The notes under the pieces were generated by a model that saw only the letters and a list, made by a program, of their open reading frames with translations, did no database searches and was not told the origin of the DNA. From the NCBI RefSeq assembly GCF_040954645.1, contig NC_092807.1, forward strand, positions 75,780,021 through 75,844,020: DNA of 64,000 bases, given 5' to 3'. How positions within the stretch are numbered: position 1 is the stretch's first letter; every line of letters begins with the position of its first letter. Origin of the DNA: Diabrotica undecimpunctata (lineage: Eukaryota; Arthropoda; Insecta; Coleoptera; Chrysomelidae). The position numbers and the translations under genes are program-made. Positions 6,027-62,427 of this stretch are shown piece after piece.

Positions 6027-6112
<86 letters not shown>
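6027..6112. repeat. (TA)n microsatellite, left flank of the 362-bp array
   Basis: About 86 bases of pure AT dinucleotides. It ends exactly where the first 362-bp monomer starts, and a second TA tract lies at the other end of the array. Confidence 0.97.
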
Positions 6113-6117
<5 letters not shown>

Positions 6118-8706
6118 GTAAAAGATTGCATTTCATTTCAATCGGAACTCCACCATTGCTCTACACGTGTTTCGAGTTATTCAACTCGTCATCAGGAGCA
6201 CTTGTGGAAGTTCAACTGAAATGAAATGCAGTCTAGTATTTGGTTATTATAACCAAAATAATAAGCCAGGTACGCTAGCAGCGACATCTATACGAAGTAA
6301 CAAGAAGTCCAGAGACCTCTCTCTGATAGTAAATTAGGTGAACCGCAAATTCAAAGCCTCTTACTAGAGACTTTTAACGACGCTAGAAGTACATTTTTAC
6401 TTCAACATGCATCTACGATTCACCTTTGAAAATTACTATCTTTTTCGCTCTTTACGTAGAGAAAGACGTTTAAATGAAAGTAAAAGATTGCATTTCATTT
6501 CAATCGGAACTCCACCATTGCTCTACACGTGTTTCGAGTTATTCAACTCGTCATCAGGAGCACTTGTGGAAGTTCAACTGAAATGAAATGCAGTCTAGTA
6601 TTTGGTTATTATAACCAAAATAATAAGCCAGGTACGCTAGCAGCGACATCTATACGAAGTAACAAGAAGTCCAGAGACCTCTCTCTGATAGTAAATTAGG
6701 TGAACCGCAAATTCAAAGCCTCTTACTAGAGACTTTTAACGACGCTAGAAGTACATTTTTACTTCAACATGCATCTACGATTCACCTTTGAAAATTACTA
6801 TCTTTTTCGCTCTTTACGTAGAGAAAGACGTTTAAATGAAAGTAAAAGATTGCATTTCATTTCAATCGGAACTCCACCATTGCTCTACACGTGTTTCGAG
6901 TTATTCAACTCGTCATCAGGAGCACTTGTGGAAGTTCAACTGAAATGAAATGCAGTCTAGTATTTGGTTATTATAACCAAAATAATAAGCCAGGTACGCT
7001 AGCAGCGACATCTATACGAAGTAACAAGAAGTCCAGAGACCTCTCTCTGATAGTAAATTAGGTGAACCGCAAATTCAAAGCCTCTTACTAGAGACTTTTA
7101 ACGACGCTAGAAGTACATTTTTACTTCAACATGCATCTACGATTCACCTTTGAAAATTACTATCTTTTTCGCTCTTTACGTAGAGAAAGACGTTTAAATG
7201 AAAGTAAAAGATTGCATTTCATTTCAATCGGAACTCCACCATTGCTCTACACGTGTTTCGAGTTATTCAACTCGTCATCAGGAGCACTTGTGGAAGTTCA
7301 ACTGAAATGAAATGCAGTCTAGTATTTGGTTATTATAACCAAAATAATAAGCCAGGTACGCTAGCAGCGACATCTATACGAAGTAACAAGAAGTCCAGAG
7401 ACCTCTCTCTGATAGTAAATTAGGTGAACCGCAAATTCAAAGCCTCTTACTAGAGACTTTTAACGACGCTAGAAGTACATTTTTACTTCAACATGCATCT
7501 ACGATTCACCTTTGAAAATTACTATCTTTTTCGCTCTTTACGTAGAGAAAGACGTTTAAATGAAAGTAAAAGATTGCATTTCATTTCAATCGGAACTCCA
7601 CCATTGCTCTACACGTGTTTCGAGTTATTCAACTCGTCATCAGGAGCACTTGTGGAAGTTCAACTGAAATGAAATGCAGTCTAGTATTTGGTTATTATAA
7701 CCAAAATAATAAGCCAGGTACGCTAGCAGCGACATCTATACGAAGTAACAAGAAGTCCAGAGACCTCTCTCTGATAGTAAATTAGGTGAACCGCAAATTC
7801 AAAGCCTCTTACTAGAGACTTTTAACGACGCTAGAAGTACATTTTTACTTCAACATGCATCTACGATTCACCTTTGAAAATTACTATCTTTTTCGCTCTT
7901 TACGTAGAGAAAGACGTTTAAATGAAAGTAAAAGATTGCATTTCATTTCAATCGGAACTCCACCATTGCTCTACACGTGTTTCGAGTTATTCAACTCGTC
8001 ATCAGGAGCACTTGTGGAAGTTCAACTGAAATGAAATGCAGTCTAGTATTTGGTTATTATAACCAAAATAATAAGCCAGGTACGCTAGCAGCGACATCTA
8101 TACGAAGTAACAAGAAGTCCAGAGACCTCTCTCTGATAGTAAATTAGGTGAACCGCAAATTCAAAGCCTCTTACTAGAGACTTTTAACGACGCTAGAAGT
8201 ACATTTTTACTTCAACATGCATCTACGATTCACCTTTGAAAATTACTATCTTTTTCGCTCTTTACGTAGAGAAAGACGTTTAAATGAAAGTAAAAGATTG
8301 CATTTCATTTCAATCGGAACTCCACCATTGCTCTACACGTGTTTCGAGTTATTCAACTCGTCATCAGGAGCACTTGTGGAAGTTCAACTGAAATGAAATG
8401 CAGTCTAGTATTTGGTTATTATAACCAAAATAATAAGCCAGGTACGCTAGCAGCGACATCTATACGAAGTAACAAGAAGTCCAGAGACCTCTCTCTGATA
8501 GTAAATTAGGTGAACCGCAAATTCAAAGCCTCTTACTAGAGACTTTTAACGACGCTAGAAGTACATTTTTACTTCAACATGCATCTACGATTCACCTTTG
8601 AAAATTACTATCTTTTTCGCTCTTTACGTAGAGAAAGACGTTTAAATGAAAGTAAAAGATTGCATTTCATTTCAATCGGAACTCCACCATTGCTCTACAC
8701 GTGTTT
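6113..8706. repeat. 362-bp tandem array with a hammerhead ribozyme in each unit
   Basis: The same phrase (tgaaagtaaaagattgcat) starts at 6113, 6475, 6837, 7199, 7561, 7923, 8285 and 8647, a constant spacing of exactly 362 bases. There are seven full units and a 60-base partial one, and the units look identical wherever I compared them. Each full unit holds, on the minus strand, the complement of a hammerhead core with a long helix I, plus a separate palindrome (ttggttattataaccaa). There is no open reading frame. Unit size, tandem arrangement, ribozyme type and microsatellite flanks match what is known of animal retrozymes and hammerhead satellites such as pDo500 of cave crickets. Calling it a retrozyme is inference. 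Confidence 0.93.
6128..6229 (-). ncRNA. Predicted type I hammerhead ribozyme (array monomer 1)
   Basis: Read on the minus strand, this segment contains CUGAUGA (complement at 6189-6195), a helix II hairpin capped by GAAU, then GAAA, a minimal helix III and a UA cleavage site. The outer ends pair as a 13-bp perfect helix. The same motif recurs at 6490-6591, 6852-6953, 7214-7315, 7576-7677, 7938-8039 and 8300-8401. The full pairing is described under the plus-strand copy at 8734-8835. Self-cleavage of an array transcript would release unit-length RNA. Confidence 0.85.
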
Positions 8707-9031
8707 TTGGTTATAATAACCAAATACTAGACTGCATTTCATTTCAGTTGAACTTCCACAAGTGCTCCTGATGACGAGTTGAATAACTCGAAACACGTGT
8801 AGAGCAATGGTGGAGTTCCGATTGAAATGAAATGCAATCTTTTACTTTCATTTAAACGTCTTTCTCTACGTAAAGAGCGAAAAAGATAATAATTTTCAAA
8901 GGTGAATCGTAGATGCATGTTGAAGTAAAAATGTACTTCTAGCGTCGTTAAAAGTCTCTAGTAAGAGGCTTTGAATTTGCGGTTCACCTAATTTACTATC
9001 AGAGAGAGGTCTCTGGACTTCTTGTTACTTC

Positions 9032-9032
<1 letters not shown>
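8707..9032. repeat. Inverted terminal copy of the 362-bp unit
   Basis: Reverse complement of the monomer, starting within the palindrome near 8707 and running back through the ribozyme and on through the preceding unit's tail to a phrase ending cttcgta, where the TA tract begins. At the junction the forward partial copy stops inside the ribozyme and about 85 bases of the unit are missing, so the DNA forms a fold-back with a short spacer. One substitution is visible near 8888 (aataatt against aataggt-type text in the forward units). Confidence 0.9.
8734..8835 (+). ncRNA. Predicted type I hammerhead ribozyme (inverted copy)
   Basis: Core CUGAUGA is at 8768-8774. Helix II is GAGUU (8776-8780) with AACUC (8785-8789) around a GAAU loop, leaving C8775 unpaired. 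G12-A13-A14 are at 8790-8792. Helix III is minimal, ACAC/GUGU (8793-8800), with cleavage expected after A8801. Helix I pairs GCUC (8764-8767) with GAGC (8802-8805), then after a 4x4 internal loop CCAC (8756-8759) with GUGG (8810-8813), then GAAC (8750-8753) with GUUC (8815-8818), and after another mismatch 8734-8746 with 8823-8835 (13 bp). The minimal helix III is a hallmark of PLE-type hammerheads, which often work as dimers. Confidence 0.87.

Positions 9033-9097
<65 letters not shown>
9033..9097. repeat. (TA)n between the array and the solo LTR
   Basis: About 65 bases of AT dinucleotides that directly join the inverted ribozyme unit to the 5' TG of an LTR. Confidence 0.97.
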
Positions 9098-9099
<2 letters not shown>

Positions 9100-10505
9100 A
9101 TATGATATAGGAGAAAGAAAGATATTGTTTAAAAAATTAATTTATAAGTTATATACTAGATAATTTTAGATATAACAAGTATTTGGTTATTTTAAGAAGT
9201 TATATACTAGAGAATTTAATAAAAATATATTTATGTGAGGGCATTTTTAATAAATTAGCATATAATAGGTGTAAAAAGTTGTATTTTAATGTTGTAAATA
9301 TATTTAAGTGAGCCATGTGCATAGGCAACCAACTATACAGTAAATTGACAGACAGAAATTAATCATAATACGAATATAAAGTGGGGTTATAATAATAACG
9401 TTAGTTTAAAATGTTTAATTTATATATATTTAATGATTTAAATGTTTATTCTGATCTGAAAAGCCTAAATGTCAACAAAATTATTAATAGAAAAGAATGG
9501 AATTCTCTGGATCACCGGAGATGGCCATGTTTGCGAAATGGTTTGTTCCAGAAAATTCAGACATGTATTTAATAGAACAAATGGAACATGATTTATTGCC
9601 AGATGATTCTAGAACAGAAAAAAAGATATAAATACCCGATGATTTGGATTAGAAGGGATCAGTTATGAGTTACAGTTACTGTGAGTCCAGTTTATTATGA
9701 AAGTTAGTAGACACATTTAGTTAGTGAAGTAAATTGTTCAGAATTTTCAAGAAGTCAGTCAGAAAAGTTTAGTAAGAAATATGAAAGTTAGTTGGAGTCA
9801 GTGAATCAGTTACAAATAGTCCAATTGTTTAATATAGTGAGTTAAATGAAGATTAAAAATTATGCATATATTTTAATGCACATTTATAATTATACACAAA
9901 TAATTATTGAAGATTAAAAAGGTATATTGGAAGAAATTAAAATTATATTATGATTGGAGATTAGTATAAATCAACTTATAATAATTGGATATTGGTATAT
10001 TGAAAAGAAGAATAAATATAAATGCTGTTTTGCTGGTTTGCTTGGTGGTGTATAAATGCTGGTGAAGAAAAATATATCTTAAATTGGTAGAAGCTGATAA
10101 TTGGAAAAAGTAATTTCACAAAAACAAGGATAACCGAAGTAAGAAGACATTCAGTGGTGATTAGAATACATATAGTGGAAAACAGTTCATTTAGGCATTC
10201 AGTGAAAGAAAGGTACAAAATTTTGTTAATATAATTTAGTAATAATAACAATTTCAATTTTGAAGATAGTTTGTTTAAATTTAACATTGTCTATAGAATT
10301 TAATTAGTTTTATAAGAATATCAATTTAAAGATAGTTTATTTTAAATTTACATTGGCTAGGTTAGATATATATGTGTGTTTCATAATAGTTATAATAAAG
10401 ATAATTTAAAAAAGTACTTACAAACTAATTCTTTGAGAACCGCGATAAAAACCCTATATTATTAAAAATACTCATTGCTCATCATTCAAACAACAAATAC
10501 ATCAT

Positions 10506-10509
<4 letters not shown>
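9098..10509 (+). mobile_element. Solo LTR of the Gypsy-C family (about 1.4 kb)
   Basis: It starts TGATATGATATAGG and ends CATCATAACA, matching the ends of the Gypsy-C LTRs at 56599-57928 and 62428-63757 in the opposite orientation. Shared internal phrases include aagttatatactagagaatt, tatttatgtgagggcattttt and gtgagccatgtgc. Both ends abut (TA)n. No internal region, primer site or coding sequence accompanies it, so it is most simply a solo LTR left by LTR-LTR recombination. The short frame at 9976-10287 on the other strand is not a gene. Confidence 0.85.

Positions 10510-10586
<77 letters not shown>
10510..10586. repeat. (TA)n between the solo LTR and Gypsy-D
   Basis: About 77 bases of AT dinucleotides. 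The gypsy fragment on its right begins abruptly inside gag. Confidence 0.97.

Positions 10587-13440: not shown

Positions 13441-13444
<4 letters not shown>
13251..13444 (+). mobile_element. 3' LTR of Gypsy-D, truncated
   Basis: It begins TGTTACGATAG three bases after a purine tract (13238-13247), the expected start of a 3' LTR. It continues for about 194 bases and stops at a (TA)n tract without a recognisable CA end. No 5' LTR is present for comparison, so the boundary rests on the purine tract and the TG. Confidence 0.7.

Positions 13445-13531
<87 letters not shown>
13445..13531. repeat. (TA)n between Gypsy-D and the Penelope-like element
   Basis: About 87 bases of AT dinucleotides. The translated IYIYIY frame across it is an artefact. 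Confidence 0.97.
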
Positions 13532-13534
<3 letters not shown>

Positions 13535-13563
13535 AGTTTTGATATTTCCGCGGGAGCTGTATG

Positions 13564-13730
13564 TTATATCAATGGTATTCCGGGTTTGACTCCGCGTTAA
13601 ATGTTGTTGGTTTTGATAAAAACCATTTTGACGACGTTTCGGCAAGATCTCACTTGCCATTTTCAAATCTCTCTGGATGGTCTGCTTCTTGTCGATGTTC
13701 GAGTGGAAGTGACGCTACGGGTGTTAGGCG
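13564..13730 (-). repeat. PLE terminal repeat, minus-strand copy, with decayed hammerhead motif
   Basis: It pairs with 14623-14788 as an inverted repeat. On the minus strand it carries UUUGAAAAUGGCAAG, UGAG and CUUGCC followed by GAAACGUC, which has the helix II, GAAA and minimal helix III of PLE hammerheads, but the CUGANGA box reads UUGAAAA and so lacks the essential C3 and G8. Cleavage is therefore not expected. The codons for the protein's last residues lie within the repeat. Confidence 0.75.
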
Positions 13731-14626
13731 GCTGGTTTTTGTAGTTACTGCGCGTTGCGCGCGCTCTTGTAATTGGTCCAGTGCGCAGGTCAGTGGGCAG
13801 GGTCTTGGTCGATTCCGTTCTTGCGTTATTCTTCGGGATAATTGGTTTCCATGTTTTTGGCAATCTTTGGGCATCGTCTCGAGAATTTAAATTATTTTCT
13901 TGTTTTTCTATTTCTATGGCTTCTCTGATAATTCGTTTTCTCTTGTTTTCGACATTCGCTAACATTACCGTATGTTTGAGGTCAATTTTGTGTCCTGTAG
14001 CTAAAGAATGCTGGGCTAGGGATGACGTCGTTTCTTTTCGTTCGATGGCATTGCGATGTTCTTCTTGTCTTACTTGGATCCTTCTATTTGTCTGTCCAAT
14101 ATAGGCTCTATCGCATTCTCCACAGGGAATTTTGTATACTCCTTGGTTTTCTAGGAGAATCTTTGTCTTGGCAGATGGTAATATGTTTGCGATTTTTCTG
14201 TCGGTGTTGAAGACAGTCTCTATTTTGTGTTTTCTCAGGACCCTGCTTATCTTCTCTGTTGTGCCTTTAATATACGGTAGAGTGGTTTTGGCAATCGGTT
14301 TTTCGTCTTCTTTTATTTCTTTTGTTGTTTTTTGTGGTCTTCGTGCCTTTTCGATTCTGTGTGTGGAAAAGCCGTTGTTTTTTAACGCTTTTGTAACTTT
14401 CTGCATTTCTTCTTTCTTGTGTTCTTCGTCTGTTAGTCGTTCAGATCTTACAGTCAGAGTTTTTATGACTGAATTCAATTGTGCAGGATGGTGGTGTGAA
14501 TCTGCATGTAGGTATCTGTCAGTGTGAGTTGGTTTTCGATACACTGTATATCCAATGTTGCCGTTTTCTTTCTTTATTATTAAGACGTCTAGGAAAGGTA
14601 GTTGTTGATTACTTTCTAATACCGCC
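13663..14626 (-). pseudogene. Penelope polymerase C-terminus with GIY-YIG endonuclease
   Basis: The minus-strand frame opens at the inverted-repeat junction near 14622 with QQLPFLDVLI and TVYRKPTHTDRYLHADS, the conserved end of the PLE reverse transcriptase, then a basic linker, then GVYKIPCGECDRAYIGQTNR (about 14130-14080) followed by RQEEHRNAI, which is the GIY-YIG nuclease motif with its conserved arginine. A downstream basic tail (RARATRSNYKNQ) ends in a serine/arginine-rich segment. The nuclease nicks target DNA for primed reverse transcription. The frame is open to its stop, but without the catalytic RT core the copy cannot move by itself. Confidence 0.9.
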
Positions 14627-14783
14627 TAACACCCGTAGCGTCACTTCCACTCGAACATCGACAAGAAGCAGACCATCCAGAGAGGCTTGAAAATGGCAAG
14701 TGAGATCTTGCCGAAACGTCGTCAAAATGGTTTTTATCAAAACCAACAACATTTAACGCGGAGTCAAACCCGGAATACCATTG

Positions 14784-14788
<5 letters not shown>
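14623..14788 (+). repeat. PLE terminal repeat, inverted plus-strand copy
   Basis: Reverse complement of 13564-13730 apart from a few changes, starting at cgcctaacacccgtagcg. The hammerhead-like segment is at 14686-14718, with GAAAC at 14713-14717 and the same damaged box as in the other copy. The shared damage suggests that it was already present in the source element before this inverted copy formed. Confidence 0.78.

Positions 14789-14843
<55 letters not shown>
14788..14843. repeat. (TA)n right of the Penelope-like element
   Basis: About 56 bases of AT dinucleotides directly after the inverted terminal repeat. Confidence 0.97.
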
Positions 14844-17809: not shown

Positions 17810-18230
17810 AAAATAGTTTAAAGTGTAGTTCGTACTTTCGTACTGTGAAAATCGTAAAGTTTCATTGTGAACAGGAAAAAGTGTTTTTGCTCCTGCCATT
17901 GTAAGGTGATTAGTGGACATTTTCACTTAGTTTAGTGCTTCACAACAATAAATCTACTGTGTATGTGACTGCTGTGGAAACTCCGCACAGACCATCCAAA
18001 AACATCCTGTGGGAATATCAATCTTCCACTAGGCCATTCAGAAACATCCTGTGGGAATATCAAGCTTCCATTCAAGGGTATTTACAAGAAATAAGCAACA
18101 GAAACTGTAAGCCTTTAATTTTTATTACTATTTTTGTGTTAAACTTGCAATCACGGCAACAAACGATAAACACAGTTATTCGCTTAGGTCGACGACGGTT
18201 TTTAGTTCAAGTGAATCAACATCAACAGAA

Positions 18231-19040
18231 ATGTCTTCGGTAAATTTAACAAGCGAACAGTTTCAAGCCTTATTAAATACAATAGCAAGGCCTATTTCGG
18301 ACTCAGGTAGTTTAGCAAAATGCGCTTCTCGCTTCGATGGATCAAAGGGGACTGATGTAAAAGCTTTTATAGATGCGGTCGAGATCTATAAAGAGTGCAC
18401 CCACGTGTCTGACGCGAACGCATTAAAGGGTATACCCATGCTGCTAGACGGTTTCGCCGTCACGTGGTTTCAAGGTGTTAAAAATACGGTAAACATGTGG
18501 GCCAGCGCCATTAATTTATTACGATCGACTTTTGGACCTCAAAAACCAGCCTACAGAGTATATCGGGAACTGTTTTCGACGGAACAAGATGCTAAAACTC
18601 CGTGTGACATTTTTGTATGCAAAGCGCGCGCGATAATAGCTGAGTTACCGGCAGATACATTAACCGAAGCCACTCAATTAGATATGGTATACGGTTTGTT
18701 GCATAGGAGAATACGTGAAAAAGTAGCACGTGATAAGATCAATACATTTAGCGAACTCTTAAAAGAAGCGAGGCAAACTGAAGAATCGTATGAAAATCCG
18801 GAAATAAACATTAAAAACGAAAACGAATCAAAACGGGTACGGTGTAGCTTTTGCCAAAAACCAGGTCACGTGAAGGATGAATGTCGAAAATTGGCCGCAG
18901 CCAGAACCAGGGAAGCAGATTCTCGAAAATCTTCGGTTGAGCCCAAACCTAATCCTCCTCTAGTAACTTCTCGTACTAGCCCTAAACCAACCTTTTCCAC
19001 TTCGAATCAGATTTCGTGTTATGGATGTAAGACTCCTTGA
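18231..19040 (+). pseudogene. Gag of Gypsy-A copy 1 (ends at a nonsense codon)
   Basis: Starts MSSVNLTSEQFQALLNTI at an ATG 440 bases after the LTR. It has the retrotransposon Gag core (FIDAVEIYKECTHV, LLRSTFGPQKPAYRVYRELF) and one CCHC knuckle, CSFCQKPGHVKDEC, at about residues 203-216. A second, degenerate knuckle begins CYGCKTP and is cut by TGA at 19038-19040, where copy 2 has GGA. The Pol frame at 19104 continues in the same phase, so the family's gag and pol form one reading frame and this stop is a lesion. Confidence 0.9.
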
Positions 19041-19103
19041 TTCATTAAGAGTAATTGTCCAAAATGCAAATCATCCAGTAAATCCTCAGCAGTATCTGAA
19101 TTT

Positions 19104-20390
19104 ATGCTTGCTGAAACAGTTAATGTCGACCAACAGTTTGCCACAAACCTATCAACTAAACCCATTGTTCAGGTCACTATTGAAGGTCATGTAGGTCATT
19201 GTTATCTTGATTCGGGAGCACAGTGCAGTATTGCTGGCTCTCAGCTAAGAGATATCCTCTTGAAGGATGAGGTACCCTTTTCCACAAAAAGTGTAGACAT
19301 GACCCTAGCGGATGGTAGGACTACTTCTACTACTGTTTTGGTCTTTGATTTAGTTGTTATCTTACAAAACCGCTCTCATAGCATTTCCTTAATTTCTGTG
19401 CCCACACACACAAATAGTCGTACCTTACTGGGGGCAGACTTCTTAAGAAAAGCTAACATCATTCTAGACATTCCTAATGACTCATGGTTTTATGGTGATG
19501 TCCCTAATATCCCCTACTCATTTGCTCCAGATCCAGCTCAGGTCAGCTCTCCTTGCCAGGTCAATAGCGTTACTCTTGCTCATTTAGAACTACGAGTAGA
19601 TGAAGGAATTTCTCTATCCTTAGACGAAAGATCCAATCTTAACAACATTGTTAAGGAAAATTCTGATTTATTCGTATATAATATAGACCCTACTCCATAT
19701 GCTGAACACTCCATTGTATTGGTTGATGATGTACCAATATCTGTTCCACCTTACCGTATGTCAGAGCCCAAAAGGCAATTACTGCGTCAGGAATTAGATA
19801 AACTTTTGGCTCAAGGCATAATCGAAGAGTGTGAGTCCCCATATGCTTCACCCGTGGTACTTGTGCCTAAGAGAGATGGAGGTATCAGATTAACAGTAGA
19901 CTATCGACGCTTAAACGCAATAACACGTGCAGATAAGTACCCTCTGCCACGTATTGAAGATATTTTGCATGCAGCAAAGGAAACCCGATTTATGACTACC
20001 CTCGACTTAAAATATGGTTATCATCAAATCTCTGTACGAACAGCTGATCGTGACAAAACAGCCTTCGTGTGTCCATTTGGCACCTTTCGTTACACACGCA
20101 TGCCCTTTGGTATGTGTAACAGTCCCGCTAGTTTCCAAAGGATGATTGATAAATTTCGTGCTGGTCTTCAAAATCTGAATATCCTAGCTTATTTAGATGA
20201 TCTGATATTATCCCCATCCTTCTCTGATCCCATAGACGATTTGAAACAAGTATTCAACCGGATGCGCCTATTTAAATTATGTCTAAATAGAGCAAAATGT
20301 TCATTCGCCTGTGAGGAATCCTATATCTCGGACACATTCTTTCACCTTTGGGTATCCGGCCAAGTGAAAATAAAGTATCTGCCAACATGA
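19104..20390 (+). pseudogene. Protease and reverse transcriptase of Gypsy-A copy 1
   Basis: The protease has YLDSGAQCSIAG (active-site D-S-G) and LLGADFLRKANIIL. RT follows with VVLVPKRDGGIRLTVDYRRL, YPLPRIEDIL, TTLDLKYGYHQISV, FRYTRMPFGMCNSPASFQRM and the catalytic AYLDDLI near 20195. Relative to copy 2 one isoleucine codon after YLDD is deleted. A 1-base deletion near 20320 throws the frame off just after CSFACEE, so the last residues are out of frame. Confidence 0.92.
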
Positions 20391-21292
20391 CACCACCCCT
20401 AAATTTTACTCAACTGCTAAAATTCCTGCAAACATGCTCATGGTTCCGTAGATTCATCGAAAATTTCTCCCATGTTGATAAACCTTTGTCGAATTTAACC
20501 AAGAAAAATGTGAAATGGACCTGGGGAGCAGAACAACAAGAGGCCTTTGAATGTCTGAAACAATTATTGTGTTCCGCCCCAATCCTACGACAAGCTGACT
20601 GCAATTTACCTTATATACTTCGTACAGATGATAGCAATTATGCTTTGGGGGCATGTCTTCTCCAGGGGGAGAAAGAGAACGAACGACCTGTAGAGTATGC
20701 TTCGAGACTCCTGACTCCTGCTGAACAAAACTATAGCACTACAGAACGAGAAGCTCTCGCTGTGGTTTGGGCAGTGAAGAAATTTCGAGGATACTTAGAA
20801 GGCGCTACTACAATAGTGCAAAGTGATCACCAAGCCTTAAAATGGCTAATGGCATATGGCATGGCTTTAGAGCTCATGCCATATGACCTAAAAATAGAAT
20901 ACATCACAGGAAGAAAAAATGTAATCGCAGATACTCTATCAAGGCCTCCCATGACAGAAGTTCCCATCATAGCTGAAGTTCATCTAGTAAGAGTAGATTT
21001 TCCAACTCTTAGTGTTGCTGATGTTCGAGAAGAGCAGCTTAATGATCCAGATGTTGCCAAGATTATTAGATGTTTAGAAGATCCCTCTTCTGACACGAGC
21101 GTAGATTTCAAGAGGTGGGCAGAAAGAGGATATATCATGAACAATGGGATATTATACCGTTATACTCCTGAAGTAGATGAAGAAGAGCCCCAATTGGTAG
21201 CGGCTAGTACACGTTTTCCTCACATACTGCATGATTCCATGATTCCGCTACTGTTGGTCATTATGGAGTGGAGAAGACATATCAAAGAATAA
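20348..21292 (+). pseudogene. RT connection, RNase H and integrase zinc region start, copy 1
   Basis: Continues the RT in a new frame with GIRPSENKVSA, FLQTCSWFRRFIENFSHV and ALGACLLQGEKENERPVEYA, then RNase H motifs TEREALAVVWAVKKFRGYLE and QSDHQALKWLM. The segment after KWLM is shortened and rearranged relative to copy 2. Near 21231 a further 1-base deletion within the H2C2 zinc-binding region of integrase shifts the frame. Confidence 0.9.
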
Positions 21293-28859: not shown

Positions 28860-29064
28860 GATGTGGGTATTAGTTAAAATAGTTAGGTAATGACTGTGAA
28901 TATTGATTTACACGATTTTATTAAAAGGAAAACCATGTATTACCATTTAACCTACATTTTACAACAACAAAACATATATCTGTCTCTTGTCACCGTTCAC
29001 TCTCGGTGGACACTGTCATGGTAACTTCGGTGGTATTCAGCCATGGAGCGGTGTGGCTGTTACA
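28857..29064 (-). mobile_element. 3' LTR of Gypsy-A copy 2
   Basis: 208 bp with TG/CA ends. The last 28 bases of the pol frame, including its stop, lie inside this LTR. Relative to the other LTR it keeps a 10-base segment (tgtattacca region, near 28940). Confidence 0.93.
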
Positions 29065-31394
29065 TCCTCCCCCTTTGCACCACCCTGGCGACTCGCGGGT
29101 GGGGCAACAGAGTCTAAGCAGGAATAGAGCTCTACAGGACAGCAATGACAACGTTTTGGTCGGGGTTGTCTACGTCTGGCAATAGGGTCAGGTTCAGGTT
29201 CAGCTTCAATTTGAGCAAGGTCATCTCCAACAGGGGGGCCCATTTCGCCATCGTCTAACCCAAGGGTCAAAGACTCTGGGCAGGAGACCAGTGGAGCAGG
29301 AGGGTCGGCTTCTGAGGATTTCACTGGACGACCTCTTCTACGGAGAGGTTGAACTGGAGCAGGGCACGGATCTTCTGGATCGGCATGGAAAGGCGTCAAG
29401 GCTGAGACATGATATTTTCCAGCAGGAACATCCGGAGTGTCGATGTGTGAAACTTCATAGGTTGTAGGGGAGAGCATTTTGGTCACCTTGTAGGGTCCGT
29501 CACGACGCGGCGCGAACTTCGAAGTTATGGACTTAGACGCGTCACTTAGTGTATGCGAATCGACTAGCACAATATCACCTACTTCGAACGAAACCGAGCG
29601 GCGGTGGCAGTCTTTATACTTCTTACGTCTATCTTGGGATTGTTCATGTGTCTCGCGGGCTTCACTAAGAGCTTTACACAAAGTTATTAGATAGGGCGTG
29701 ATTTGTGGCACGAAGTTGTCCTTAGCTATGATGCTTCGAAAATCACGATTTGCATCATCAGGAGTTCGTAACTCGCGACCGAACGTGAGGTACGCAGGAG
29801 TGAAACCGGTTGAGTCGCACTTCACAGTGTTCATCGCGAACCGTATAGCGGGTAACTTTTCAGACCAAGACGAATGGTCATTATTTGTTAGAATAGCTAA
29901 CTGAGTTTTAATGTCTCTATTTTTTCGTTCGACGGGGTTAGCTTCCGGGTGGTATACAGGTATAAGGTTCTGTTGGTACCCAAAACAATGCGCCACTTGT
30001 TGCATTACCGCACTCACGAACTGAGTACCGTTGTCACTGACGACTCGACGAGGGATTCCGTATCTTAAGATTATGTTGTCTATGAAACACTTGGCACAGG
30101 CAGCGGCAGTAGCAGATTCTAACGGGAATAATTCTACCCAACGACTAGCAGTGTCTTCCACTACCAGAATCCATGTATAACCTTGAGGAGAGAGGGGCAA
30201 AGGCCCAAATAAATCAATAGATAGCACTTCAAACCTCTGGGACTGAACAGGGGTTTGTAGGAGACCAGCGGGTTTGAGGTTAGAGACTTTATAGCGTTGG
30301 CACTCAAGACATTTACTTACATGGTCAGAGATAATTTTCTTCATTCCAGGCCAATAGTAGCGTTTTATTATTCTTTGATATGTCTTCTCCACTCCATAAT
30401 GACCAGCAGTAGCGGAATCATGGTACTCATGCAGTATGTGAGGAATACGTGTACTAGCCGCTACCAATTGGGGCTCTTCTTCATCTACTTCAGGAGTATA
30501 ACGGTATAATATCCCATTGTTCATGATATATCCTCTTTCTGCCCACCTCTTGAAATCTACGCTTGTGTCAGAAGAGGGATCTTCTAAACATCTAATAATC
30601 TTGGCAACATCTGGATCATTAAGCTGCTCTTCTCGAACATCAGCAACACTAAGAGTTGGAAAATCTACTCTTACTAGATGAACTTCAGCTATGATGGGAA
30701 CTTCTGTCATGGGAGGCCTTGATAGAGTATCTGCGATTACATTTTTTCTTCCTGTGATATATTCTATTTTTAGGTCATATGGCATGAGCTCTAAAGCCCA
30801 TCGAGCTAACCGTCCAGTAGGGGACTTTAAGGTCATTAGCCATTTTAAGGCCTGGTGATCACTTTGCACTATTGTAGTAGCGCCTTCTAAGTATCCTCGA
30901 AATTTCTTCACTGCCCAAACCACAGCGAGAGCTTCTCGTTCTGTAGTGCTATAGTTTTGTTCAGCAGGAGTCAGAAGTCTCGAAGCATACTCTACAGGTC
31001 GTTCATTCTCTTTCTCCCCCTGGAGAAGACATGCCCCCAAAGCATAATTGCAAGCATCTGTACGAAGTATATAAGGTAAAATGCAGTCAGCTTGTCGTAG
31101 GATTGGGGCGGAACACAATAATTGTTTCAGACATTCAAAGGCCTCTTGTTGTTCTGCTCCCCAGGTCCATTTCACATTTTTCTTGGTTAAATTCGACAAA
31201 GGTTTAGCAACATGGGAGAAATTTTCGATGAATCTACGGAACCATGCGCATGTTTGCAGGAATTTTAGCAGTTGAGTAACATTTAGGGGTGGTGTCATGT
31301 TTAATATGGCAGATACTTTATTTTCACTTGCCGGATACCCAAAGGTGAAAGGATGTGTCCGAGATATAGGACTTCCTCGCAGGCGAATGAACAT
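29037..31394 (-). CDS. Pol, C-terminal part: RT connection, RNase H, integrase
   Basis: 785 codons by the longest frame, with true homology from about residue 22 (SENKVSAILN). RNase H: RTDACNYALGACLLQ, TEREALAVVWAVKKFRGYLE, QSDHQALKWLM. Integrase: H2C2 zinc finger (HEYHDSATAGH, then CLEC), core with D in SIDLFGPLPLS, D in VVSDNGTQFVS and E in NPVERKNRDIK, and a C-terminal barrel segment ITSKFAPRRDGPYKVTKML. All three catalytic residues are present. The tail is proline-rich. A missing base at about 31330 separates it from the gag-RT frame, so the full polyprotein would need that lesion to be bypassed. It could be an assembly error. Confidence 0.93.
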   Translation of the reverse strand: MFIRLRGSPISRTHPFTFGYPASENKVSAILNMTPPLNVTQLLKFLQTCAWFRRFIENFSHVAKPLSNLTKKNVKWTWGAEQQEAFECLKQLLCSAPILRQADCILPYILRTDACNYALGACLLQGEKENERPVEYASRLLTPAEQNYSTTEREALAVVWAVKKFRGYLEGATTIVQSDHQALKWLMTLKSPTGRLARWALELMPYDLKIEYITGRKNVIADTLSRPPMTEVPIIAEVHLVRVDFPTLSVADVREEQLNDPDVAKIIRCLEDPSSDTSVDFKRWAERGYIMNNGILYRYTPEVDEEEPQLVAASTRIPHILHEYHDSATAGHYGVEKTYQRIIKRYYWPGMKKIISDHVSKCLECQRYKVSNLKPAGLLQTPVQSQRFEVLSIDLFGPLPLSPQGYTWILVVEDTASRWVELFPLESATAAACAKCFIDNIILRYGIPRRVVSDNGTQFVSAVMQQVAHCFGYQQNLIPVYHPEANPVERKNRDIKTQLAILTNNDHSSWSEKLPAIRFAMNTVKCDSTGFTPAYLTFGRELRTPDDANRDFRSIIAKDNFVPQITPYLITLCKALSEARETHEQSQDRRKKYKDCHRRSVSFEVGDIVLVDSHTLSDASKSITSKFAPRRDGPYKVTKMLSPTTYEVSHIDTPDVPAGKYHVSALTPFHADPEDPCPAPVQPLRRRGRPVKSSEADPPAPLVSCPESLTLGLDDGEMGPPVGDDLAQIEAEPEPDPIARRRQPRPKRCHCCPVELYSCLDSVAPPASRQGGAKGEDVTATPLHG

Positions 31395-33463
31395 TTTGCT
31401 CTATTTAGACATAATTTAAATAGGCGCATCCGGTTGAATACTTGTTTCAAATCGTCTATGTGATCAGAGAAGGATGGGGATAATATTATCAGATCATCTA
31501 AATAAGCTAGGATATTCAGATTTTGAAGACCAGCACGAAATTTATCAATCATCCTTTGGAAACTAGCGGGACTGTTACACATACCAAAGGGCATGCGTGT
31601 GTAACGAAAGGTGCCAAATGGACACACGAAGGCTGTTTTGTCACGATCAGCTGTTCGTACAGAGATTTGATGATAACCATATTTTAAGTCGAGGGTAGTC
31701 ATAAATCGGGTTTCCTTTGCTGCATGCAAAATATCTTCAATACGTGGCAGAGGGTACTTATCTGCACGTGTTATTGCGTTTAAGCGTCGATAGTCTACTG
31801 TTAATCTGATACCTCCATCTCTCTTAGGCACAAGTACCACGGGTGAAGCATATGGGGACTCACACTCTTCGATTATGCCTTGAGCCAAAAGTTTATCTAA
31901 TTCCTGACGCAGTAATTGCCTTTTGGGCTCTGACATACGGTAAGGTGGAACAGATATTGGTACATCATCAACCAATACAATGGAGTGTTCAGCATATGGA
32001 GTAGGGTCTATATTATATACGAATAAATCAGAATTTTCCTTAACAATGTTGTTAAGATTGGATCTTTCGTCTAAGGATAGAGAAATTCCTTCATCTACTC
32101 GTAGTTCTAAATGAGCAAGAGTAACGCTATTGACCTGGCAAGAAGAGCTGACCTGAGCTGGATCTGGAGCAAATGAGTAGGGGATATTAGGGACATCACC
32201 ATAAAACCATGAGTCATTAGGAATGTCTAGAATGATGTTAGCTTTTCTTAAGAAGTCTGCCCCCAGTAAGGTACGACTATTTGTGTGTGTGGGCACAGAA
32301 ATTAAGGAAATGCTATGAGAGCGGTTTTGTAAGATAACAACTAAATCAAAGACCAAAACAGTAGTAGAAGTAGTCCTACCATCCGCTAGGGTCATGTCTA
32401 CACTTTTTGTGGAAAAGGGTACCTCATCCTTCAAGAGGATATCTCTTAGCTGAGAGCCAGCAATACTGCACTGTGCTCCCGAATCAAGATAACAATGACC
32501 TACATGACCTTCAATAGTGACCTGAACAATGGGTTTAGTTGATAGGTTTGTGGCAAACTGTTGGTCGACATTAACTGTTTCAGCAAGCATAAATTCAGAT
32601 ACTGCTGAGGATTTACTGGATGATTTGCATTTTGGACAATTACTCTTAATGAATCCAGGAGTCTTACATCCATAACACGAAATCTGATTCGAAGTGGAAA
32701 AGGTTGGTTTAGTGCTAGTACGAGAAGTTACTAAAGGAGGATTAGGTTTGGGCTCAACCGAAGATTTTCGAGAATCTGCTTCCCTGGTTCTGGCTGCGGC
32801 CAATTTTCGACATTCATCCTTCACGTGACCTGGATTTTTGCAAAAGCTACACCGTACCCGTTTTGATTCGTTTTCGTTTTTAATGTTTATTTCCGGATTT
32901 TCATACGATTCTTCAGTTTGCCTCGATTCTTTTAAGAGTTCGCTAAATGTATTGATCTTATCACGTGCTACTTTTTCACGTATTCTCCTATGCAACAAAC
33001 CATATACCATATCTAATTGAGTGGCTTCGGTTAATGTATCTGCCGGTAACTGAGCTATTATCGCGCGCGCTTTGCATACAAAAATGTCACACGGAGTTTT
33101 AGCATCTTGTTCCGTCGAAAACAGTTCCCGATATACTCTGTAGGCTGGTTTTTGAGGTCCAAAAGTTGATCGTAATAAATTAATGGCGCTGGCCCACGTG
33201 TTTACCGTATTTTTAACACCTTGAAACCACGTGGCGGCGAAACCGTCTAGCAGCATGGGTATACCCTTTAATGCGTTCGCGTCAGACACGTGGGTGCACT
33301 CTTTATAGATCTCGACCGCATCTATAAAAGCTTTTACATCAGCCCCCTTTGATCCATCGAAGCGAGAAGCGCATTTTGCAAAACTACCTGAGTCCGAAAT
33401 AGGCCTTGCTATTGTATTTAATAGGGCTTGAAACTGTTCGCTTGTTAAATTTACCGAAGACAT
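31301..33463 (-). CDS. Gag, protease and reverse transcriptase in one frame
   Basis: 720 codons from ATG at 33463. Gag core (FIDAVEIYKECTHV, STFGPQKPAYRVYRELF), CCHC knuckle CSFCKNPGHVKDEC and a second C-x2-C element lacking the histidine (CYGCKTPGFIKSNC). The protease D-S-G is in YLDSGAQCSIAG. RT motifs follow in order: VDYRRLNAITRADKYPLPRI, TTLDLKYGYHQI, RMPFGMCNSPASFQRMID, and the catalytic LAYLDDLIILS. Gag passes into Pol without a stop or frame change, unlike Gypsy-B and -C here. The frame ends out of phase after the 1-base deletion near 31330. Confidence 0.94.
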   Translation of the reverse strand: MSSVNLTSEQFQALLNTIARPISDSGSFAKCASRFDGSKGADVKAFIDAVEIYKECTHVSDANALKGIPMLLDGFAATWFQGVKNTVNTWASAINLLRSTFGPQKPAYRVYRELFSTEQDAKTPCDIFVCKARAIIAQLPADTLTEATQLDMVYGLLHRRIREKVARDKINTFSELLKESRQTEESYENPEINIKNENESKRVRCSFCKNPGHVKDECRKLAAARTREADSRKSSVEPKPNPPLVTSRTSTKPTFSTSNQISCYGCKTPGFIKSNCPKCKSSSKSSAVSEFMLAETVNVDQQFATNLSTKPIVQVTIEGHVGHCYLDSGAQCSIAGSQLRDILLKDEVPFSTKSVDMTLADGRTTSTTVLVFDLVVILQNRSHSISLISVPTHTNSRTLLGADFLRKANIILDIPNDSWFYGDVPNIPYSFAPDPAQVSSSCQVNSVTLAHLELRVDEGISLSLDERSNLNNIVKENSDLFVYNIDPTPYAEHSIVLVDDVPISVPPYRMSEPKRQLLRQELDKLLAQGIIEECESPYASPVVLVPKRDGGIRLTVDYRRLNAITRADKYPLPRIEDILHAAKETRFMTTLDLKYGYHQISVRTADRDKTAFVCPFGTFRYTRMPFGMCNSPASFQRMIDKFRAGLQNLNILAYLDDLIILSPSFSDHIDDLKQVFNRMRLFKLCLNRAKCSFACEEVLYLGHILSPLGIRQVKIKYLPY

Positions 33464-33919
33464 TTCTGCTGATGTTGATTCGCTTGAACTAAAAACCGTC
33501 GTCGACCTAAGCGAATAACTGTGTTTATCGTTTGTTGCCGTGATTGCAAGTTTAACACAAAAATAGTAATAAAAATTAAAGGCTTACAGTTTCTGTTGCT
33601 TATTTCTTGTAAATACCCTTGAATGGAAGCTTGATATTCCCACAGGATGTTTCTGAATGGCCTAGTGGAAGATTGACATTCCCACAGGATGTTTTGAATG
33701 GTCTGTAGTGGAAGATTGATATTCCCACACGATGTTTTTGGATGGTCTGTGCGGAGTTTCCACAGCAGTCACATACACAGTAGATTTATTGTTGTGAAGC
33801 ACTAAACTAAGTGAAAATGTCCACTAATCACCTTACAATGGCGGGAGCAAAAACACTTTTTTCTGTTCACAATGAAACTTTACGATTTTCACAGTACGAA
33901 CTACACTTTAAACTATTTT

Positions 33920-37068: not shown

Positions 37069-39037
37069 ACGGACAAAAGAAAGACTAGATCACATAAGAA
37101 CGTAGAAGAAGAACAGAAAGTGACAGACAGAACCGAAGAACAAATTAAAGAGACTGAAGAAGTACAGGAGACGATGGAGGAAAAAAGACAGCCAGAAGAA
37201 GCACAAATGGAAAGGCAAATGGCAAGTGGAGACCAAGCTCAGCCCGTAAAGAAGGATGAATCGGACTTTCACAAGATGATGGCAATTTTGTTACAGGAAA
37301 TAAAAAAAAACTGAGCAAAATATAAACCAGAAAGCAGAAGAAAATAAACAAGACATGACTCAGAAGTTGACAAAAGAACTTGAAGATACAAAAAAAGAAA
37401 TAAAACGGGAAATAACACAAAATTTTGACGACAAAATACAACAGATGGCACAACAGGTTGAGGATAAGTTGGGAAAGAAGATAGAAGATGTAAAAGAAGA
37501 GTTAACCCTAGAAATGGCCAAGAGGGAAGAGCAGTGCAAAGAACAAATGGAAGTGTTATCGGCACAGCTGGAAAAGAATAATGAAACTCAAAATAAAAAG
37601 ATTGAATTAATGGAACAAAATTTAAAGCTAGAACAACAAAATAACCAAAAAAAGTTCGAAGATGTTGACGAACAAATGGGAGTGTTGGCAGTACAGCTGG
37701 AACATCACATTGAGCAGAAGGAAGAGATATTTCGACGAGACATTAATGAACAGTGGAAGAAAAAAGAAGATGAAATAGATGAAAATATGAATAAGACCAA
37801 AGAGATAATGGAGAAAGAAATTGGGAGAGTACAAGAGTCTCTTAAAGAAGTGACACAGAAGGAATTGGATGCAAGGCCGGTTGTACAAACGGTCGAAAGA
37901 GATTGTAAAATCTATTTTAGTGGAAGAATAAAACAGCAGCATCCAGTACCTTTCATGAAATTCCTTAGGCACAGATATGCATCTTACAGAAATTTCGAAG
38001 ACTTTAAAGAATTCATCAGAAACCAGATGACAGATGAGGCGTTACTATGGTTTTCGAACAAAGAAAATGAGTTGGTGGATCTGGAAGACTTTGCGACCAA
38101 ATTCAGTGAATATTTCTGGGGTCAAGCACAACAGCGTTCAATCAAAAACGAGCTGTTAAGTGGCAAATACAACCCAAATCGTAGCATGTCATACCACCGG
38201 TACGCCATGCAAATTTACAGCACAGCTCAATACTTAGACTGTGGTTTTAACGAAGAATACATTGTGGGTTGTATCGTGCAACACTTTGATCGGACATTGG
38301 AAGATATCATGATGTTATACAACTTTAAAGAAATAGACAAACTGTGCCAATTTTTGATGATGCATGAGCAACGAAACCCCAGGTATCAAAACAATGACCA
38401 AGCAAATAATAATAATAATAACAACTTCAATGGGAACAATAACTACAGCAGAAACAATAATCAGAACGGCAATAATTTCAATAATCATCGTAATTTTAAC
38501 AATAACTATAGACAAAATAATGGTAACAACAACTATAATAACTCGAACTTTAGGAATAATAATAATAACTACCGCAACCAAAATAATCAGAACTTTAATC
38601 GCCAAAACTATAATCGTAACAATCAAACTAACAACAATAACTATGGAAATAATGGACGGTATCAAAACGGTAATTACAATAATCAAAACAACGGAAATTT
38701 TAACAGAAATAATTACAATAATAACAACAGAAACTTTAACTCCAATGGCAATATGAATCACACATTTTCAAACAGTGCCATTCAACAGAATCAGACAAAC
38801 AATTCACAACAACAGTCAAATCAAAACTACACAAATAATCGAAACCATAACACTAGAAGTCTAGAAGATATAAATAGAAATAACCAAAAAAGACAAGTGA
38901 ATTTTCTAAGTCACCATCAATCATATACCGACGTCAGTCAACAAGAGTCACCAATTGAAACACTCAACACATCATCACCATCACAACCCTTTGACACACA
39001 ATACACAACAGATTCACAATCACCAAATTTTCAATAA
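37069..39037 (+). pseudogene. Gag of Gypsy-B: coiled coil and Asn-rich tail
   Basis: The frame begins near 37069 at ACG (ATG probably lost), runs as charged coiled coil (TEEQIKETEEVQETMEEK), meets an extra A in a poly-A run near 37310, then continues openly from 37355 to 39037. The coiled coil covers about the first 180 residues. A Gag core follows (KIYFSGRIKQQHPVPFMKFL, NEEYIVGCIVQHFDRTLEDI), then about 110 residues rich in Asn with Phe, Tyr, Arg and Gly and no CCHC knuckle. It presumably packages RNA through this low-complexity tail. The homopolymer frameshift may be a sequencing error. Confidence 0.87.
39025..39031 (+). promoter_or_regulatory. -1 frameshift slippery site A-AAT-TTT (Gypsy-B gag/pol)
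   Basis: Heptamer AAATTTT in the gag phase A-AAT-TTT, one codon before the gag stop at 39035-39037. The -1 frame stays open from here into the protease. Gypsy-C has the same heptamer in the same phase at 60722-60728. Confidence 0.8.
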
Positions 39038-40267
39038 AGCACCTGCTAAATGCGGCCGTATGTCACTATGAGCATCCAAGGGAGTTCATAAAATTTGGGG
39101 AAGAAAAGAAAAATCAAAATTTGCAAGGGTTAATTTTAATTCAGGGTAAATTCTTTCAAAAACAAGTTAAAATTTTAATAGACACGGGTTCTGAAGTTTC
39201 ACTAATTGACAATAAAGTTATTAATGAATTAAATTTTCAAAAATATTGTTATTCAATTCCAAAAGGTTAATCTAGTGCGTGCAAACAACAAAAAACTATA
39301 TGAAGCAAAGAAGGGAATAATGGGAAAAGTATTATTTGATACAACCGAATATAGTATGCAATTCATAATAGTAGAAAACATGAGACATGATATTTTGATT
39401 GGGACAGACGAAATGGACAGAAATGGAATGGTCATCGATTATGTAAACAAAACTTTACAAATTCAAGAAGAAGTACTGAAATTTGGAAATACAGAAGACG
39501 AGGAATCAAAACAAGAGGAAATAAAGATAAAGGAAATTAACAATATTCAAAATCATACAAACTACAATTTTATAAATAATGAACCAGAAGAAAGTAAAAT
39601 GGAATTGGAAGAAAATTTAGTATGTGCAGAAGAATGGAAAGAAGATGTAGGAAGATTGTTGCAAAAATATGATGGTTTGATAAAATCCGAAAACCGAGTA
39701 GCTGAAAAGTACATGCATAAAATTGAGGTAAAAGGAATAGAAAATTTTAAATCGAAGACATATCCAATTCCTTATAAATACCGGAAAGAAGTTTCAAAGG
39801 AGATAGAGAAGATGTTACAAAACGGAATAATTGAAAACAGCAATTCAAAGTACATAAACCCGATAGTGGTAGTGAAGAAGAGCAATGGTGAGTTAAGATT
39901 ATGCCTCGATGCCAGGAACATTAACAAATATTCAACACCACAATATGAAGCACCACAAAGTGTAGATGCAATATTTGGAAAAATAACTAAATCAAATTAT
40001 TTTACAAAAATTGACCTGAAGCATAGCTTTTGGTTGATACCATTGCATAAAGATAGTAGGGATTTTACAGCCTTTTCGATAGATGGGGTAATATATAGAT
40101 TTAAAGTAGTTCCATACGGTTTGCAAAGTGCATGTTCAGCTCTTGTACGTGCTTTACATCAAATTTTGGATCAATACGAAGACTTTATTATACACTACAT
40201 TGACGATATTCTCATTTATTCTCACACATCACACGAACATTTAACACACATAAATATTTTGTTGTGA
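39032..40267 (+). pseudogene. Pol of Gypsy-B: protease and reverse transcriptase
   Basis: The -1 frame after gag contains HYEHPREFIKFGEEKK and the protease site ILIDTGSEVSLID (39174-39212). A frameshift near 39250 leads to VNLVRANNKKLYEAKKG and DILIGTDEMDRNGMVIDY. RT follows with PIVVVKKSNGELRLCLDARN, YFTKIDLKHSFWLIPL, FKVVPYGLQSACSALVRALH and catalytic IIHYIDDILIYS (near 40200). The frame breaks at 40267 where several codons after HEHLTH are missing. Confidence 0.9.
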
Positions 40268-40593
40268 ATGAAGCAGGATTAAAAATTAACTTAAACAAAT
40301 GCCAGTTTTATCAACAAGAGGTCACGTATTTAGGATATAAATTAGACAGAAGTGGTATTTCTATGGACGAAGAAAGAATTGAGAAAATAATGAACTATCC
40401 AGCACCGAAAAAATTGAAAAATTTACGAGGATTTATAGGCCTAATCAACTACTTTAAACGATTAATTCCAGACTTGAGTGAGAAAGAATTACCATTAATT
40501 CAACTATTGAAGAAGGATCAAAAATGGAAATGGAAAGAAGAACAAAACCAGGCTTTTCAAAATTTAAAGGACATATTTCGGACTAATCTATGA
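40264..40593 (+). pseudogene. RT thumb and connection of Gypsy-B
   Basis: A frame in a different phase continues Pol: NEAGLKINLNKCQFYQQEV, TYLGYKLDRSGISMDEERI, LRGFIGLINYFKRLIPDLSE. It ends at TGA 40591-40593, and the same phase resumes at once (IYHPRYDLPFILQTDAS), so this is a nonsense lesion within one coding region. Confidence 0.9.
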
Positions 40594-46672: not shown

Positions 46673-47367
46673 TGCCCGAGGTTTGTCCCTAGCCCTCGCC
46701 AACAATTAACAACCATACATGTTTTGTATCAGTCATCTTCTACAGTTCATCCCAAACCCTTCTTTCAGTGCGTCATAGTTGATCGAATTCTCTCTAACGC
46801 ATTAAGCTAGAAGTGACAGAAAAAAACGTAAGTCTGTGATTATTATACATAGAACTTAGAAAAGTATGTATCGTTCACGGGTATTTGCATATTAAAGCGA
46901 ATTCTACTTACGGATATATAATTGGTTGAAGTTTAGAATGCGCTAAATAGATATCCAATCAATGATGCGCATAAATATGATTTGACGCAGATGGTCTCAA
47001 TAGTGACAGTACTATGACAATGTCAACTGATAAAATGATAATTATCATTCCAGGTTAGTATTTTCAGACATTTTACAGTGAAAATTTAATTTTGTATTTA
47101 TTGTCATAATAATATTTTAAATATGCCGAGATATACCGAGAAAGAACAAAGAGTAATATTAAAATTATTAAATTATTTTCAATTAGAAGATATTCATATG
47201 TATTAAAACGGTTCTTTTTAGAACCACATTTTATTAAAATATAAGATATAATTGATGCCAGCCACATATCCCCTGTAATCATTGATTTTAATGAATCAGG
47301 TTCTGAATCGGATTGTGGATTGTTTGAAATATAATATTCATTTTTGTTATTCATAAAAAAAGAAGGT
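46673..47367. other. Probable 3' flank of the integrase fragment, then spacer
   Basis: No gene called. A segment near 46745-46770 is matched in inverted orientation near 48212-48237. A minus-strand frame (47073-47354) starts with an acidic serine-rich segment (NNPQSDSEPDSLKS), and a plus-strand ATG at 47123 reads MPRYTEKEQRVIL before a stop. Neither has homology that I can name. Confidence 0.5.

Positions 47368-56519: not shown

Positions 56520-56598
<79 letters not shown>
56520..56598. repeat. (TA)n left of Gypsy-C
   Basis: About 79 bases of AT dinucleotides touching the LTR's outer end. A short ATATATATA also follows the other LTR at 63758, so the element probably inserted into TA-rich DNA. 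Confidence 0.97.
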
Positions 56599-56602
<4 letters not shown>

Positions 56603-57928: not shown

Positions 57929-58515
57929 ATACCCCAAAATAATATTTAAAATAAATAATTTACTTATTATTTTTTTAAATATTAATTTTCTCATACCTTA
58001 TTAAATTTAATAAATCAATTTTTTTTTATTTAAAATGTGTTAAATACATCCCTGTTCGCTGTCTATGTCAAAACAGAGAACAACGGAGCACAGTTCGGCT
58101 ATTCTATGGTCAAACTGTCATGTCAAATGGAGCAATGGATGCGATATCAGAGAATAAAATATAACCTTAATTAAAAATATAATAGATATGGTGTTCTGTT
58201 TATTTATAGACAAAATCTAGGAATTATTTCCATTCAAAATAACTTCATCAATATAAATTGGTAAGTTTTTCCACTTTATTATATTAGAAAGACATTTTTA
58301 TAGCAATTATAGTATCAATTTTGTGTCTAACCCCAAATTATGATTTTTAGGGTACAAATTAATTTCCATATATACAAAATTCAACAAGTACGATGTCAAA
58401 TTGATTCAAAATAATGAAATCTACCATCTACCATTTAACAAATCAAGTCTATTGAACAAAATGGACACATCAGTAAGTTATTAGTGTTATTATATTTGTG
58501 TTAAAGGTATAGAAA
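57929..58515 (+). other. Foreign segment inside Gypsy-C with splice-like signals
   Basis: This segment has no retroelement character. On the plus strand it carries a less AT-rich stretch (58045-58150), then a donor (g-gtaagttttt at 58261), an acceptor (tgatttttag ending 58350), an ATG at 58461 reading M-D-T-S, and a second donor (gtaagt at 58473). That is the layout of a gene's 5' end: exon, 90-base intron, exon with start codon, next donor. It is antisense to the element and occupies the place of integrase. Capture of host DNA is inference. Confidence 0.5.
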
Positions 58516-62424: not shown

Positions 62425-62427
62425 AAT

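Follow-up and report, generated by a model that had tools for sequence, protein, structure and literature searches.

A dispersed 362-bp hammerhead repeat in Diabrotica undecimpunctata, probably an animal retrozyme inserted head-to-head into (TA)n tracts

Results

Overview

The window studied here, a stretch of 64,000 nucleotides from Diabrotica undecimpunctata, contains an array of a 362-bp unit with a hammerhead motif, and we consider it likely that this unit is a non-coding, non-LTR animal retrozyme, a unit-length circle of which is copied from two starts with (TA)n as primer, a Penelope-like element (PLE) being the most likely source of the enzyme. The structure of the insertions, their recurrent ends, their target, a primer mark and a continuous unit-length template in the young loci are read directly from the copies. 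The first-pass annotation had proposed a retrozyme from the array alone, and this reading is now strongly supported by 37 insertions, a fixed anatomy in most of them, a template of unit length at the young loci, and empty counterparts of three insertions. The features are collected in Table 1.

Table 1. Features of the array, of the neighbouring PLE and of the LINE inserted in retrozyme units (window positions unless a locus is named)
Feature	Position	Strand	Remark
(TA)n tract, left half of insertion target	6027-6113	.	
Left arm, 7.17 copies of the 362-bp unit	6112-8706	- (hammerhead sense)	ends 3' at site A (unit position 50), where it is joined to (TA)n
Hammerhead core CTGATGA-helix II-GAAA, unit 1	6170-6195	-	repeats at 6532, 6894, 7256, 7618, 7980, 8342
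Head-to-head (5'-to-5') junction of both arms	8705-8706	.	2-nt overlap
Right arm, 0.92 unit, inverted	8705-9036	+	unit position 266 round to 235
Hammerhead core of the inverted unit	8768-8793	+	pattern match
(TA)n tract, right half of insertion target	9033-9109	.	
(TA)n at one end of the window PLE	13444-13530	.	
Truncated PLE, sense copy and inverted copy of its own 3' end	13532-14788	-	5 kb from the array
PLE open frame, 320 aa	13663-14625	-	RT end and GIY-YIG-like endonuclease
(TA)n at other end of the window PLE	14789-14843	.	
LINE in retrozyme units	L021:2931-7447; L041/L042; L031:3697-4285		

The array and its inverted arm

Tandem Repeats Finder reports the left arm with a period of 362, 7.2 copies and 100% matches (6112-8706), and not one letter differs among the seven full units (6113-8646), which bears out the seven units at 362-bp spacing first described. 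The end of the array had been placed at 8706, which is too early, as an inverted partial unit goes on to 9036, and the (TA)n on both sides had gone unnoticed. The sense 3' end of this right arm (8705-9036) lies at unit position 235 (site B) and is fused to (TA)n; the arm is 99.7% identical to the unit, with a single difference, G88A, in 332 positions. No open frame of at least 110 aa is present in the array and inverted arm (6112-9036). The unit has a GC content of 37%, and its circle has a predicted folding energy of -117.4 kcal/mol, 200 shuffled sequences averaging -75.2 (sd 5.7); the antisense unit circle is likewise stable in prediction (-101.6 kcal/mol).

The hammerhead motif

The pattern CTGATGA..GAAA occurs at seven minus-strand sites 362 bp apart and at one plus-strand site (8768-8793). 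A loose hammerhead pattern has 19 matches in the window, 8 of them the array cores, with 3.66 expected, and none of 100 shuffles reaches this number; the exact pattern is absent from the viral and prokaryote contigs searched. Each unit reads, in sense order, helix I, CUGAUGA, an extra base, helix II (GAAU cap), GAAAC, ACGU, GUA and GAGC, so that the GAAU-capped helix II, the GAAA, the 2-bp helix III, the UA cut site and the long helix I of the first description are all present. A three-helix type I hammerhead structure can be folded from the unit, and its core is invariant: none of the 11 invariant core positions varies over the 37 locus consensuses, the sole core change being at the free position N7 in one locus. 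The additional base that separates CUGAUGA from helix II, flagged earlier as a deviation, is indeed there and is not a sign of decay: 33 of the 37 locus consensuses have T at this position, and 4 have C. The position is T also in the two PLE-type hammerhead motifs, those of the window PLE and of the locus L030.

The covariance-model check once suggested for the motif goes in part against the first-pass reading: the type I model RF00163 marks all eight window copies with 15.9 bits (E 5.3), and the copies examined overall with 14-15.9 bits, against a cut-off of 34, and an Rfam search at the gathering score does not list the motif. The PLE-type hammerhead of L030 likewise escapes RF00163 at E<=10, and the low scores may therefore reflect a model insensitive to this hammerhead type, and not necessarily an absent motif. 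Rfam recognition is a detection tool and not a published defining feature of metazoan non-LTR retrozymes. The conservation of the hammerhead region as a whole was also considered: the per-locus counts look depleted (16/102, P 0.002) but repeat inherited variants, and by distinct variable positions, 13/103 in the hammerhead region vs 36/259 elsewhere, there is no depletion outside the invariant core.

The active fold with its 2-bp helix III is predicted at -43.3 kcal/mol, compared with an MFE of -47.9 (window) and -46.4 (U336), i.e. 3.1-4.6 kcal/mol above the best fold. Since the active fold is not the best one and ACACGUGU is self-complementary (predicted duplex -10.3), a dimeric ribozyme is plausible for the retrozyme unit.

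Dispersal and anatomy of the insertions

We searched the window's own assembly (1.74 Gb, 2867 contigs) and obtained 195 listed matches, with only 40 of 1155 candidates scored; all counts below come from this sample, which is for that reason biased to near-complete units. At least 37 insertions were read, 36 from 38 fetched stretches plus that of the window, and the suggested genome search for further arrays thus finds the unit dispersed. Two insertions split by a LINE, L021/22 and L041/42, are each counted as one, about 2 kb between the two stretches of the latter lying outside the fetched DNA. Unit positions are numbered from the hammerhead cut.

Among the matches listed, 24 of the 37 insertions are built of a pair of arms placed head-to-head, the outer 3' end lying at 50 in one arm and at 235 in the other and each running into (TA)n; L027 is among them, its second end, mapped to 240 in TA-like letters, being taken as 235. 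By eye L057, with a second arm of about 11 nt, is a 25th insertion of this type. Two (TA)n-fused 3' ends are mapped at 26 loci, and 24 of these combine 50 with 235, with L021/22 (303 and 50) and L050 (27 and 235) off the rule. A pair of 50 with 50 or of 235 with 235 is found in none of the 37 insertions read among the matches listed, and 24 unlike pairs have a probability of 6e-8 under independent equal choice. The 12 of 37 loci that are not of this type are L021/22, L050 and ten with one or no recognised end at site A or B; the ten, single-ended or truncated (L025, L026, L037, L044, L048, L049, L051, L054, L055 and L058), belong to the 37 and not to the 24.

The arms meet head-to-head with an overlap of 0-8 nt (the L021 row, with its 50-nt alignment overlap, is excluded from this range) or with 0-16 nt of filler. 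Their inner (5') ends cluster in two places, with 11/59 at unit positions 187-191 (one of these cut by a LINE) and 6/59 at 263, where a palindrome has its edge. All mapped A arms measure at least 368 nt and B arms go down to 48 nt, the short A arm of L057 being unmapped. These clusters and lengths may mark RT stops, the order of events, or the search bias to full units.

Target and empty sites

Three insertions, L033, L025 and L047, have empty counterparts in host repeats; at these empty sites nothing but (TA)n or a brief run of TA is present. The site of L033 is empty in L025 and that of L025 is empty in L033, and the site of L047 is empty in two tandem copies alongside. The host repeats at L047:1600-3891 are arranged in tandem with a length of about 578 bp, each with (TA)n, and only the first of the three holds a retrozyme. 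With at least 37 insertions, three empty counterparts and an array lacking any open frame of at least 110 aa, the unit is dispersed, mobile and non-autonomous. Tracts of TA measuring 20 bp or more account for 3.0% of the fetched loci, compared with 1.5% of the window and 0.4% of random stretches totalling 40 kb.

Start sites and the primer mark

Sites A (50) and B (235) are 185 nt apart on the 362-nt unit, and TTACTT occurs in the unit only twice, just upstream of each of them. Of 62 retrozyme/(TA)n flanks, 22 read TCTTTTACTTTC, 5 read TCTTCTACTTTC, 24 read TTGTTACTTC with or without G, and 11 are others. Position 231 lies four bases short of the site-B boundary; A stands there in 10/26 terminal units and in 0/135 internal ones, all of which have G (the internal units are those matching the search string, doubly read DNA being removed and the shifted end of L027 counted among them). 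The change G231A is what would be expected if a TA primer were extended across a G.T pair: the 3' end of (TA)n would pair with UAUA and set its T against G231, leaving A. The likeness of the flanks of A and B is not significant overall, with 220 of 1752 random pairs scoring as high; for the 22 nt upstream of A and B alone, 156 of 5781 random pairs are as high, which is suggestive.

Length of the template

At 26 young loci, defined by at most 4 differences from the consensus, 14 variants are present in all units, 26 in one unit, and 2 are intermediate, both of the latter in the 14-unit locus L021/22. The 11 older loci have 29 fixed, 62 single-unit and 7 intermediate variants. These counts omit positions 262 and 336 (subfamily markers), 231 near arm ends and once-seen positions; the arm of L021 duplicating L022 and the terminal part of the first L021 arm are left out too, and at position 336 a single L028 unit departs from the others of that locus. 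In 8 of the 26 young loci both arms carry fixed variants. Three fixed variants, G214A (L039), G257A (L043) and G108A (L046), are each private to one young locus, others marking subfamilies. The hammerhead cut site is crossed by 52 of 59 arms, in 144 crossings, and is the end of none of the 59, one arm ending 3 nt past it. Since variants are fixed across units and arms and the arms cross the cut site, a template in young loci that is continuous through the cut site and unit-length is supported by the copies. A circle is its simplest form, and a homogeneous linear multimer is a possible one.

The link to Penelope-like elements

The two copies of the 3' end of the window PLE (13560-13731 and 14622-14793, inverted) are 98% alike, and a tail of about 33 nt at one 3' end is missing from the other. 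Its open frame resembles insect PLE proteins, with a protein of the beetle Anoplophora glabripennis as best relative (64% identical); because the Pfam GIY-YIG score is weak (10.9 bits, under the cut-off of 22.6), the GIY-YIG call rests on the motif and on the relatives. At L030, the (TA)n that holds the retrozyme also holds a second pair of head-to-head arms (92.6% alike), each with a hammerhead core, whose 3' ends differ by about 36 nt. A protein search gave no match for this pair, which from its anatomy and hammerhead is probably a PLE remnant.

Published tests with a purified PLE protein show cleavage of AT-rich DNA, extension of both its strands and starts internal to the RNA; the RNA used there was unprocessed, and the hammerhead was not needed (PMC11167929). 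Inserts of PLEs are described as having pLTRs in inverted orientation and, at one end, a tail that may be absent (PMC3846280). Since (TA)n targets, head-to-head arms and two unlike 3' ends are common to both, the retrozyme, judging by its copies, inserts like a PLE, and the PLE help suggested at first is supported, short of proof, by the anatomy shared with the window PLE and the L030 pair. PLE protein matches are present at 8 of 36 fetched insertion loci and absent from the random stretches, a comparison that is not decisive as it sets flanks of about 132 kb against 40 kb. An intact PLE bearing the retrozyme's start motifs was not found in the window and the fetched loci.

Discussion

Proposed mechanism and its alternatives

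We infer self-cleavage, circularity, one circle per insertion and a PLE as the enzyme, in the following order of steps. The array would be transcribed, and the hammerhead would cut its RNA into 362-nt monomers, perhaps as dimers, given the 2-bp helix III and the self-complementary ACACGUGU, whereupon a host ligase would close the monomer into a circle. The steps that follow are supported by the genomic copies: a break in (TA)n leaves two TA-ended 3' strands, each priming reverse transcription on a continuous unit-length template, one at site A and one at site B, and the cDNAs continue, often more than once around the unit, before they are joined head-to-head. The enzyme would most likely be a Penelope-like RT/endonuclease. 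We see an even chance that the circle has two dedicated start sites, on opposite sides, and that a dimeric PLE complex primes both TA ends at once; the unlike ends, together with the private variants shared by the arms, would in that case amount to two-origin, circle-templated target-primed reverse transcription. Such a dimer would hold one circle, break the (TA)n tract, and let rolling-circle cDNA synthesis run from both TA ends on the same circle. Against the proposal count the Rfam scores below the cut-off, the lack of depletion of variable positions around the core, the 12 loci that do not combine 50 with 235, the PLE tests with unprocessed RNA and a dispensable hammerhead, the bias of the sample, and the difference at position 88 between the two arms of the window. 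Homogeneous donor arrays could also yield fixed variants.

The latter point leads to the nearest alternative, in which the two-ended target-primed insertion is the same and the template is an uncleaved linear multimer of an existing array. That the studied PLE inserts unprocessed RNA, with a hammerhead dispensable in vitro (PMC11167929), and that no arm ends at the cut site would both agree with it; yet singletons of the donor would then be expected in subsets of units, and only 2 of 42 young-locus variants are intermediate, and the private variants in both arms of L039, L043 and L046 fit a single monomer template. We regard the linear multimer as unlikely. It is still less probable, and indeed improbable, that the machinery copying the circle into (TA)n is that of a LINE (APE or RTE type) and not of a PLE. 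The genome does have an APE-type LINE, inside three arrays, but this LINE is nowhere head-to-head at its sites here, has a T/A-rich tail, and makes duplications of 11 bp (L021/22), 10 bp (L031) and 2 bp (L041/42), whereas the retrozyme is two-ended and head-to-head like the PLE-type elements here, an arrangement of arms that the available text of PMC3846280 describes for PLEs.

It is hardly credible that the unit is an ordinary satellite which retains the relic of a hammerhead and owes its spread and homogeneity to unequal exchange. A long array with intermediate variants exists (14 units at L021/22), and a hammerhead satellite is known in cave crickets (PMC2837043); short dispersed insertions, two recurrent outer ends and empty sites speak against a satellite, as do the private variants shared by inverted arms, which unequal exchange cannot homogenise.

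Relation to known systems

For metazoan retrozymes a circular RNA has been proposed as the template, and PLEs as a strong candidate helper, with direct proof lacking (Cervera and de la Pena 2020, PMC7229834). Metazoan non-LTR retrozymes have repeats of about 150-450 bp with GC below 50% and a type I hammerhead in each, as here, and the present unit differs from them in having one more pyrimidine between CUGAUGA and helix II. That class is further marked by self-cleavage, by abundant RNA in linear and circular form, and by the lack of LTRs, of a primer-binding site and of a polypurine tract. Arms set head-to-head, recurrent starts such as those at 50 and 235, and a preference for (TA)n are not described for metazoan retrozymes in the portion of PMC7229834 considered. 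AT-rich targets, head-to-head inverted ends and two alternative 3' ends are common with PLEs (PMC11167929 and the available text of PMC3846280). Unlike a PLE, the array has no frame for RT and GIY-YIG and so is not itself a PLE, and its starts are 185 nt apart on the 362-nt unit, compared with about 35 nt in PLEs. The pDo500 satellite of Dolichopoda is likewise an insect tandem repeat with a hammerhead, for which a double-hammerhead form was proposed; it is described as satellite DNA, and target-primed anatomy is no part of that description in the available text (PMC2837043). Plant LTR retrozymes (PMC4918200) share the hammerhead, the circular RNA and the non-autonomous state, and differ by type III hammerheads and LTRs (PMC7229834).

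The class, that of animal retrozymes, is therefore known, and the family is new as far as our searches go. A description of head-to-head retrozyme insertions or of two start sites was not found in the titles and abstract openings of the open-licence literature, and relative to this literature the insertion architecture may be new. The young copies record the start sites, the primer mark, the target, the unit-length template and the joining step, and may show how ribozyme-bearing mobile elements of animals jump. With them, the circle-template hypothesis becomes testable by existing PLE biochemistry, and the priming of both target strands on one RNA suggests a reason for the inversion of PLE inserts and for their two unlike ends.

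Other elements in the window and the loci

The APE-type LINE encodes RT and endonuclease domains, and its copies are about 99% identical. At three loci it lies inside retrozyme units: L021/22 and L041/42 hold it at unit position 302, the latter apparently as two copies in tandem, and L031 holds it at about 190. No copy is found in the flanks, in the window or in 40 kb of random stretches, and the LINE may favour retrozyme arrays. Several unlike sequences end in CATAACA directly before (TA)n (window 10509, 26773, 54335 and 56598, and several loci), which looks like another element family or an end signal tied to TA tracts. The window has a 503-bp repeat pair (56598-57100 and 62427-62929, 99.8% identical) with a further copy at 10017-10510 (94.6%). 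Named relatives in the protein searches come mostly from insects, above all beetles, and also from spiders and reptiles, many other relatives carrying no name; none of the named proteins is near-identical. Ty3/Gypsy-like elements are located at 18111-21292, 29037-33583, 37304-42195 and 58470-62293, the last three by Pfam on parts of them; the first by eye resembles 29037-33583 in the other orientation, with broken frames. In addition, a histone 3' UTR stem-loop is found at 47205-47250, above the Rfam cut-off.
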